The notes under the pieces are model-generated. The model was given only the letters and a program-made list of their open reading frames with translations, made no database searches and was not told the origin of the DNA. From NCBI GenBank assembly GCA_018334055.1, contig JAGXSS010000053.1:1-41468 (forward strand): DNA of 41,468 nt, read 5' to 3'. The translations under genes were made by a program, and so were the position numbers. Origin of the DNA: Peptococcaceae bacterium (GTDB lineage: Bacteria; Bacillota; UBA994). Of this stretch, positions 36,920 through 41,468 are shown one piece after another. The first letter of the stretch is position 1. Each line of letters opens with the position of its first letter.

Positions 36920-38691
36920 CTAGACGCGAGCATCTTGCCAACCGCCGTGATTAAAACGCCAGTAAGCACATAGACCCCGCGTCACTTGATCGAGCGACAT
37001 GGCGATCCACGCGCCGGTTAACCCCCACCCGAGATAATTGACCAGCAGGTTGGCGAGTGTCACCCTCACGCCCCATATGCCGATTAGAGTGATGAACATG
37101 ACGAAGCGCGTATCGCCTGAGCCGCGCAGTGAACCCATCATGACAAAATTCGATGCCATCATGGGCTGTACTAAAGCTATGATGCGCAGGCAGATGACCC
37201 CGAGACGCACTACCTCGGGGTCGTTTGTGTATAAACGCAGAAGATGCGCCGGAAATAAAAAGAGAATGATGCCAACCGTCCCCATGAACATCATGGCGAG
37301 CTGCCTAGCCTCAAGGCCAAATTTCTTGGCCAAGTCCGGCCGCCCGGCACCCAGCGCCTGCCCCACTAAAGTGGTCGAGGCCATGGCGAAGCCCATGCCG
37401 GGGGTGAACGAAATCCCCTCGATATTTATGGCTAGGAGGTGTGCCGCATACGGCACCGTCCCTAAGCCAGCCACGATGCGGGCAAAAAGCATCATCCCAA
37501 AACGCATGGTCAATTGCTCGCCTGAAGCCGGCAAACCAACACGCAAAATGCGGCGCATGACCGCTAGGTCCGGCCGCCAACTGTCCTTAAGGCGCAAGCA
37601 AAGAACGCACTTGCCGGAGAAAAACACTCCAACAACCAGGAGCATGGCTACGAAGCGGCTAAATAGCGTTGCATAGCCCGCCCCTGCCACGCCAAGCGCC
37701 GGAAAACCGAAGTGACCGAAGATGAGCAGGTAGTTACCCACCACATTGATGAGATTGGCGATGATATTTACCCGCATCGGGGTTTTCATATCACCTGCGC
37801 CGCGCAGCACGCCGTTTAAGATAATCTTGACACTCCCCATGCCTAAAGGCAGAGGATTCTTGGGTGATTAAACCGAGGTCCATTTCTGGTATCGGAGTAT
37901 GACCCCAAGTTCAGGGCTGTGCCATCAGCCCGTCCCAGACCAGAGCATATTAGCTGTCTGGGCTGATAGACTATTACCATCTATCATAGGCAGTTTAATG
38001 TCGTGCCAGACTGTGCTTACAGTTTTACGCACAAAGCAATTTTTGTGCAACCGCATACTGTTTTCAAAGATCAGGCGTTTTAACGACTTGTGCATGTCGC
38101 CATCAAAGATGGATTATCTAATTATACCACATCGTGGTATAAAAAACAACTTGCGCCTTATATCCCCATAGCTGAAGCAAGGGGCTTTACGGCACTTTCG
38201 GTAATGAGGGAAAAAAGCAGGCTGGTGCCCACTATGCGGGTATACATGATAGCGTTAGGCGCAACAGCCGGCTCAGCGCCCATGAAGGCAATGATTAGGG
38301 GTGCGGCGAAGTACACACCAGCGGCCAACAGACCGGAAAGCAGCACCGCCAAGGTGAATGATTGCCTGGCGGCATGGTTCGCGCCGGGGATGTCTCTCGC
38401 ACCCATAAGCCTCGCAATGAGGGCGGTGTTGCCGACCGTGACTGCGGAAAATAGGGCTTGGGCAGTAAACATGGGTTGATTGCTGAGGCCCACCGCGGCG
38501 ATGGCCCCCGCGCCCAAACTCCCCACCATCATCATGTCGACGATGTTAACCAAGGTCATGAGCACCTGCTCCGCCATCGCCGGCAGCGCTAAGCGCAATA
38601 CTTGGGAGCGGATCTCGCCCTTTTCTGGTTCATGCCCTAAATCATGAAATGTAATCGGTGCGCTGGCTGATGGGGTCGTCGCTGTGCCCAT
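36920..38691 (-). pseudogene. MATE-family efflux transporter, split by a mobile element
   Basis: The N-terminal half (38691-38194) reads QVLRLALPAMAEQVLMTLVNIVD and on to RIVGTSLLFSLITES. The C-terminal half (37831-36920) reads VKIILNGVLRGAGDMKTPMR and on to the end. Between them lies a 362-bp insertion (37832-38193). Joining base 38194 directly to 37831 keeps the frame exactly and gives LLFSLITESVKIILNGV, a normal MATE middle, with about 469 residues in total. ATG 38691, seven bases after GGGGG, is the likely start because the promoter lies at 38725-38753; longer starts overlap it. As it stands the gene can make only a truncated N-terminal half. MATE proteins export drugs or metabolites with Na+ or H+. 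Confidence 0.92.
37832..38193. mobile_element. Non-autonomous IS200/IS605-like element, 362 bp
   Basis: Inserted directly after TTGAC (37827-37831) inside the MATE gene, with no target duplication; excision on paper restores the reading frame. The left part begins ACTCCCCATGCCTAAAGGC, with a small GCCT/AGGC hairpin at 37841-37850. A longer stem lies at 37924-37967. The right part contains a 9-bp-arm hairpin at 38122-38142 and ends in a GAAGC...GGCTT hairpin. No transposase or TnpB frame is present. Target-specific insertion without duplication and subterminal hairpins are traits of the IS200/IS605 superfamily. A second copy starts at 41329, also after TTGAC. Boundaries may shift by 3 bp because ACT occurs at both ends. 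Confidence 0.8.
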
Positions 38692-38724
38692 GTTCATGCC
38701 CCCTAGTATTTCGCCTACAATAAT

Positions 38725-38753
38725 AAAGTACAGGGCCATAAACAAGAAGTCAA
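38725..38753 (-). promoter_or_regulatory. Promoter of the MATE gene
   Basis: Minus strand: -35 TTGACT (38753-38748), 17-bp spacer, -10 TACTTT (38730-38725). Transcription would start near 38718. On the plus strand TGCTAAAAT (38765-38773) is an extended -10-like sequence that may serve the divergent transporter gene. Confidence 0.5.
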
Positions 38754-41220: not shown

Positions 41221-41328
41221 CTACGCTCACCATCAAGCGCTCCATGCGGAGTTTATGCAGAACGTCGCCGAACTTGGTAAACAGTTTAACGCTAATGGTC
41301 CGACACTCCCTTTTGTCATCATGTTGAC

Positions 41329-41468
41329 ACTCCCGATGCCTAAAGGCAGGGGATTCTTGGGTGATTAAACCGAAATCCATTTCTGGTATCGGAGTATGAC
41401 CCCAAGTTAAGGGCTGTGCCATCAGCCCATCCTAAGACAGTGCATGTAGCATCTTAGGCTGACAGGCT
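41329..41468. mobile_element. Second copy of the IS200/IS605-like element (left part, cut by window end)
   Basis: Starts directly after TTGAC (41324-41328) and matches 37832 onward with scattered substitutions: the GCCTAAAGGC hairpin, GGATTCTTGGGTGATTAAACC and GGTATCGGAGTATGACCCC stretches are shared. Similarity to the first copy begins at TTGAC and the flanks differ beyond it. The stem at 41423-41461 differs in sequence from copy one but keeps its pairing. Whether this copy carries tnpA or tnpB beyond the window cannot be seen. Confidence 0.8.

Follow-up and report, generated by a model that had tools for sequence, protein, structure and literature searches.

The window, i.e. the whole 41,468-nt stretch of DNA that was analysed, corresponds to a complete contig (G000:C53) of a draft genome from the Bacillota and contains, on its minus strand, two copies of the right end of a mobile element. 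The first, copy one, splits a MATE transporter gene (36920..38745, minus strand) into the segments 36920-37840 and 38158-38745, with a Pfam MatE match in both halves. Copy one as a whole (37827..38200, minus strand) is a 374-bp RNA-only element of the IS608 type, inserted 3' of TTAC (GTAA at 38201-38204 of the plus strand). On the same strand follow one another: (i) a left end with a hairpin (38151..38200) and the guide tetranucleotide AAAG (38185-38188); (ii) a promoter, TTGTTT-17-TATAAT, predicted from the sequence (38121..38149); (iii) a boxA-like motif, GATCTTTGAAAAC (38060..38072); (iv) the core of a structured segment, here called module X (38018..38062), built as stem, AUGCGGUU, hairpin, GUAAA and stem; and (v) the putative omegaRNA scaffold with the right end (37827..37986), which ends in ..GGGGAGUGUCAA and for which the guide would be the flanking GATTATCTTAAACGGC. 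The terminal hairpin of the right end (37835..37855), which is stem 4 of the scaffold and has a UUUA loop, is preceded by the guide GAAT (37856-37859) and followed by the end TCAA (37827-37830).

The omegaRNA/right end of copy two (41324..41468, minus strand) ends at the contig end, where sister copies continue into TnpB. By comparison with these sister contigs, from which its tnpB is deduced, copy two is taken to be a tnpA-tnpB element of the ordinary kind, truncated where the contig stops. In the same assembly, right ends are seen at the ends of contigs C8, C20, C27, C43, C53, C58 and C100, and left ends at the ends of contigs C9, C10, C17, C24, C56, C65 and C103. Because many contigs end inside copies, the draft is broken at the transposon and full tnpA-tnpB copies are missing from it.

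Both window copies can be recognized as IS200/IS605 ends on the minus strand, since other right-end copies of the genome run directly into the TnpB C-terminus (PF07282) and seven left ends precede tnpA (PF01797, over the cut-off; Y1 transposase). The left 50 bases of copy one are 98% identical to the left ends before these seven tnpA copies. The cleavage and guide tetranucleotides of IS608 from Helicobacter pylori (CL TTAC, CR TCAA, GL AAAG and GR GAAT; PMC5934647), which likewise combines tnpA and tnpB, are all present at the deduced ends; the differences from IS608 are the Bacillota host and the presence of an RNA-only derivative in the window. Complete elements, composed of left end, tnpA, tnpB and the same right end, are found in Desulfosporosinus acididurans M1 and others. 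In the relatives, the open reading frames beside the copies are, by Pfam, ordinary neighbouring genes, so that these copies occupy unrelated sites.

The right-end RNA lies downstream of, and overlaps, the tnpB 3' end. It begins on the 5' side with hairpins A0 and A, followed by stem 1, by stem 2 with stem 3 inside it, by stem 4 and by the terminus GUGUCAA; a guide from the flank comes last. This chain corresponds stepwise, through stems 1-4 and a predicted pseudoknot to the 3' terminus, to the omegaRNA (reRNA) of ISDra2 TnpB (PMC10097598, PMC8612924), also a right-end RNA that overlaps the tnpB 3' end and takes its guide from the flank; in it, stem 1 forms a pseudoknot with the 3' terminus, and stems 2 and 3 are present together with a stem 4 that has a UUUA loop. 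In contrast to ISDra2, two extra covarying hairpins (A0 and A) are found here 5' of stem 1, and the target is the IS608-type TTAC instead of TTGAT. Judging from the sequences, the minus strand very probably encodes a TnpB omegaRNA at the right end of an IS200/IS605 transposon of the IS608 type, and the stem singled out by the original prediction would be hairpin A of this RNA.

When Rfam was searched with the window at the gathering threshold, its TnpB-RNA family sot0042 gave no match, and searches with the element at E up to 10, and with the elements of relatives, gave only snoRNA- and miRNA-type matches at chance level, apart from sot0042 in one relative's locus (L214) and a weak match to HgcC in another (L217). 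The class of omegaRNAs is not defined by a match to an Rfam TnpB-RNA family. The sotRNA families RF02656 and RF02657 (PMC12558985) are similar in being RNAs that overlap tnpB, and differ in that the window element does not match them. Besides the form present in the window, another type of omegaRNA, which is longer, occurs at L123/L218 (G303:C77), L125, L129 and L136; it shares hairpin A and stem 1 but has an elongated terminal hairpin ending in GGAGGAUGUCAA.

Hairpin A of copy two (41431..41458, minus strand; CCUAAGAUGC..GCA-CUG-UCUUAGG), the inner stem of the original prediction, has on the plus strand the arms CCTAAGA (41431-41437) and TCTTAGG (41452-41458), to be compared with CCCAGAC (37934-37940) and GTCTGGG (37956-37962) in copy one (37934..37962, minus strand; CCCAGACAGC..GCU-CUG-GUCUGGG). 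The inner stem of copy one is present as described; the CAG of copy one begins at 37926 and not at 37927. Half of the 20 paired positions differ between the two copies, in five of the ten pairs, and not one of the changes is uncompensated; the compensated pairs include the apical AGC/GCT of copy one versus TGC/GCA of copy two. The compensatory changes are, thus, more extensive than the three pairs initially counted. With substitutions placed at random, all ten pairs stayed intact in 42 of 400,000 trials. The remainder of the right end, from stem 1 to the terminus, differs at 5 of 105 positions. Elsewhere in the genome, a decayed right-end relative (L056 1067-1206; G000:C89) has lost the terminal hairpin and the TCAA, with hairpin A still paired.

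With the reading frame of copy two taken from its near-identical sister copies, the tnpB stop codon UAA (TTA at 41454-41456 of the plus strand) falls inside hairpin A, and the hairpin also surrounds the tnpB stop codon in Desulfosporosinus. This overlap would fit a pairing imposed by protein-coding constraint, or a hairpin acting at the tnpB stop codon or as a terminator. Such an origin is, nevertheless, highly improbable: in two other genomes (G025 and G019) the tnpB stop lies upstream and hairpin A, wholly downstream of it and non-coding, is still paired, so that coding constraint provides no explanation; furthermore, copy one keeps the hairpin without any tnpB, and no T run follows it.

The case for a conserved omegaRNA fold was extended to further copies with two alignments, namely A2, made of nine rows with MAFFT and not fitted to the model structure, and A3, made of 46 rows and fitted to it. 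In A2, 99.1% of the cells are paired, the covariation score is 0.266 versus 0.117 after shuffling, and two-sided changes are found in 7 of the 10 pairs of hairpin A. In A3, 27 of 33 pairs show two-sided changes, with a score of 0.42 versus 0.15 after shuffling, which decreases to 0.02-0.09 in slid controls. For hairpin A itself two-sided changes affect 9/10 pairs in these 46 aligned relatives, so that the claim that the fold itself matters is well supported; arms varying independently, which were looked for among the relatives, were not found. Covariation is silent on the pseudoknot, because its five pairs, although paired in all nine rows of A2, are invariant. A covariance model built from these right ends finds matches in 27 of 398 Bacillota genomes, the E-values of such home-made models being rough.

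Whether the fold acts as RNA or as single-stranded DNA bound by the transposase had been left as an alternative, and it is the RNA that is favoured. IS200/IS605 ends are recognized as single-stranded DNA hairpins, and the right end here is such an end, which is what would recommend a stem conserved mainly for binding by TnpA. However, the hairpins that carry the guide and cleavage tetranucleotides of IS608 are the left-end (38151-38200) and terminal right-end (37835-37855) ones, to which the role in transposition is better ascribed, while hairpin A is found further in, about 105 nt into the right end. Moreover, the fold matches that of an omegaRNA, and on the minus strand G.U wobbles outnumber A.C mismatches (73 versus 33), as expected for a minus-strand RNA, a count that may lean toward this strand because A3 was fitted to the model. 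Conservation mainly as transposase-bound DNA has, therefore, very little probability.

The outer part of the stem, as originally drawn, dissolves into neighbouring hairpins. Hairpin B, which is stem 1 of the omegaRNA, lies at 37914..37931 in copy one (minus strand; GGGCUG(AUGGCA)CAGCCC) and at 41411..41428 in copy two (minus strand); the pseudoknot can form between UGGCA in its loop and UGUCA at the terminus. Hairpin A0 lies on the opposite side of hairpin A (37964..37986 in copy one, minus strand; UGAUAGAU/GUCUAUCA), and in 16 of 23 distinct arm pairs, of many different sequences, all 8 of 8 positions are complementary. An outer CAG/CTG stem was rejected: its CTG belongs to hairpin B and its CA pairs within hairpin A0, and the supposed 5-base bulge is made up of two linker bases and GGG from the next hairpin. 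Across the 46 rows of A3 the outermost of the proposed outer pairs is C.A in 20 and C-G in 15; within hairpin B, the CTG base in question is found in 20 G-C and 20 A-U pairs, with no mispaired cells. These pair counts at the shared base also led to the rejection of two alternating folds, and the GGGCTG/CAGCCC hairpin that had been thought to compete with the stem stands side by side with it.

In analogy with established TnpB work (PMC8612924, PMC10278001), a minus-strand RNA would be made, end in a guide taken from the DNA next to the element and bind TnpB, and the complex would direct cleavage of the empty donor site, i.e. TTAC followed by the guide sequence, which would favour retention of the element. 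Relative to the core, i.e. the part equivalent to the ISDra2 scaffold, hairpin A is located on the 5' side, in the region of the tnpB stop codon. As a guess, hairpins A0 and A may shape or mark, and protect, the 5' boundary of the mature RNA; in ISDra2, cleavage does not require the stretch on the 5' side of the core (PMC10097598), so that hairpin A is not necessarily needed here.

Copy one stands apart from such tnpA-tnpB elements. When its flanks are joined at TTAC|GATTATC, an open MATE frame without a stop results (L-I-T|I-I-L-N-G-V), so that excision would restore the gene, and in the deduced empty site TTAC precedes the guide. Miniature derivatives of IS200/IS605 elements (MITEs/PATEs) keep both ends, have lost their genes and are moved in trans. 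Copy one has both ends and neither tnpA nor tnpB, and would depend on TnpA and TnpB supplied in trans by the at least seven tnpA-tnpB copies of the same genome; it differs from MITEs/PATEs in that its omegaRNA is retained in full and that it has, in addition, a promoter, a boxA and module X.

That copy one is a decayed remnant left by a chance deletion, neither mobile nor expressed, as the single copy of module X in this genome might suggest, is rather unlikely. Both ends and all IS608 signals of copy one are intact, the same layout occurs in several copies, with 96-99% identity, at different sites of the D. acididurans genome, a near-identical element is present at two sites in another genome (G258), and module X covaries.

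Module X, at positions 38018-38072 of the window (minus strand) with the boxA included, opens with a stem followed by a conserved AUGNGGUU loop, and continues with a hairpin, a GUAAA that is likewise conserved and the closing stem; it has no match in Rfam. Among eight sequences, 12 of its 13 pairs covary (score 1.03 versus 0.34); among 25 distinct rows, 98.4% of the cells are paired and two-sided changes are again found in 12/13 pairs (0.92 versus 0.30). A model of module X alone matches 16 of the 398 sampled Bacillota genomes at E up to 0.05, or 15/398, from 13 families, after one marginal match was set aside; the loci include L209, L214, L213, L217, L198, L200, L118, L143 and others. An ungapped pattern search yielded 37 genomes, mostly by chance, as a reversed control pattern also matched many, and it was the structure-aware model that separated true matches from chance ones.

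In these genomes, module X nearly always has a left-end hairpin resembling those of IS200/IS605 on one side and an omegaRNA-like right end on the other, and the layout of the RNA-only elements is left end, promoter, boxA, module X, omegaRNA and right end. The right-end terminus, where recognized by script, lies 153-304 nt downstream of module X, and there is no room for TnpB between the two, given that no intervening frame exceeds 74 aa. RNA-only elements are multi-copy at different sites in some genomes (five copies in G017, two in G258), with one copy in the present genome; the autonomous copies L063, L103 and L107 are without module X. The right ends that follow module X are of several types (..GUGUCAA, ..GGUUCAC, ..GUUCAC, ..GAUGUCA and ..GUCGUCAC), one of which weakly matches sot0042; the module-X element of G324 weakly matches RF02656 (E 9e-8, below cut-off). 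At one locus (L165; G425:C82) an RNA-only element keeps the left end, the promoter and the last small hairpin, the module X core being lost. The right-end RNA of another RNA-only element (L217 1622-1734; G353) is the one that weakly matches HgcC (E 0.04); HgcC is an archaeal RNA without an assigned role and might itself be an omegaRNA.

Nearly every copy of module X has a TATAAT-like box in front of it. In a Desulfosporosinus genome (G017), the 14-mer GATCTTTGAAAACT is shared by the five RNA-only copies and the 16S rRNA leader, and in G284 GCTCTTTGAAAACT is found before the 16S; for the window's own genome a 16S leader was not found for the boxA comparison. The boxA-like motif here resembles the boxA of rRNA leaders, where it serves antitermination (PMC4807359, PMC10250234), in sequence and in position, shortly after the promoter and before an untranslated RNA, with the difference that module X and the omegaRNA lie downstream, not rRNA. 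One may guess that boxA and module X let the untranslated RNA be transcribed through or be protected.

Taken as a whole, a Bacillota class of RNA-only IS200/IS605 elements can be tentatively proposed, in which boxA and module X would form an antitermination or RNA-protecting cassette for expression of the omegaRNA independently of tnpB, common to different IS200/IS605 groups, with the transposase and nuclease of relatives being used in trans; this proposal is plausible, somewhat short of an even chance. A less probable reading, still to be taken seriously, is that module X is a mere spacer, or a relic of common ancestry, and plays no part in omegaRNA expression. The three module-X types without a clear boxA (G324, G234 and G303) would agree with a mere spacer; the two-sided changes and nearly complete pairing over the 25 distinct rows, the conservation of the AUGNGGUU and GUAAA loops while the stems change, and the occurrence of module X before several different right-end types argue against it.

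Stand-alone omegaRNAs of IscB, with the guide RNA away from the nuclease gene, were reportedly described by Altae-Tran in 2021. The elements discussed here differ from them in being of the TnpB type and in being carried by a mobile element that has an expression module of its own. No TnpB-less omegaRNA elements with a boxA were found in a literature search that had most subscription journals outside its reach. The RNA-only layout, found also in other Bacillota, is apparently previously undescribed, and the novelty of RNA-only elements with module X is provisional owing to this limited reach.

With hairpins A and A0, the TnpB omegaRNA scaffold is extended by two covarying 5' hairpins, for which a covariance model is ready, and module X, which occurs in many families of Bacillota, may represent a new RNA motif. 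Gene-less elements with their own promoter and a conserved module would show the omegaRNA to be a selfish unit in its own right, parasitising TnpA and TnpB, and make it testable whether the guide RNAs of gene-less copies serve TnpB in keeping those copies in place.
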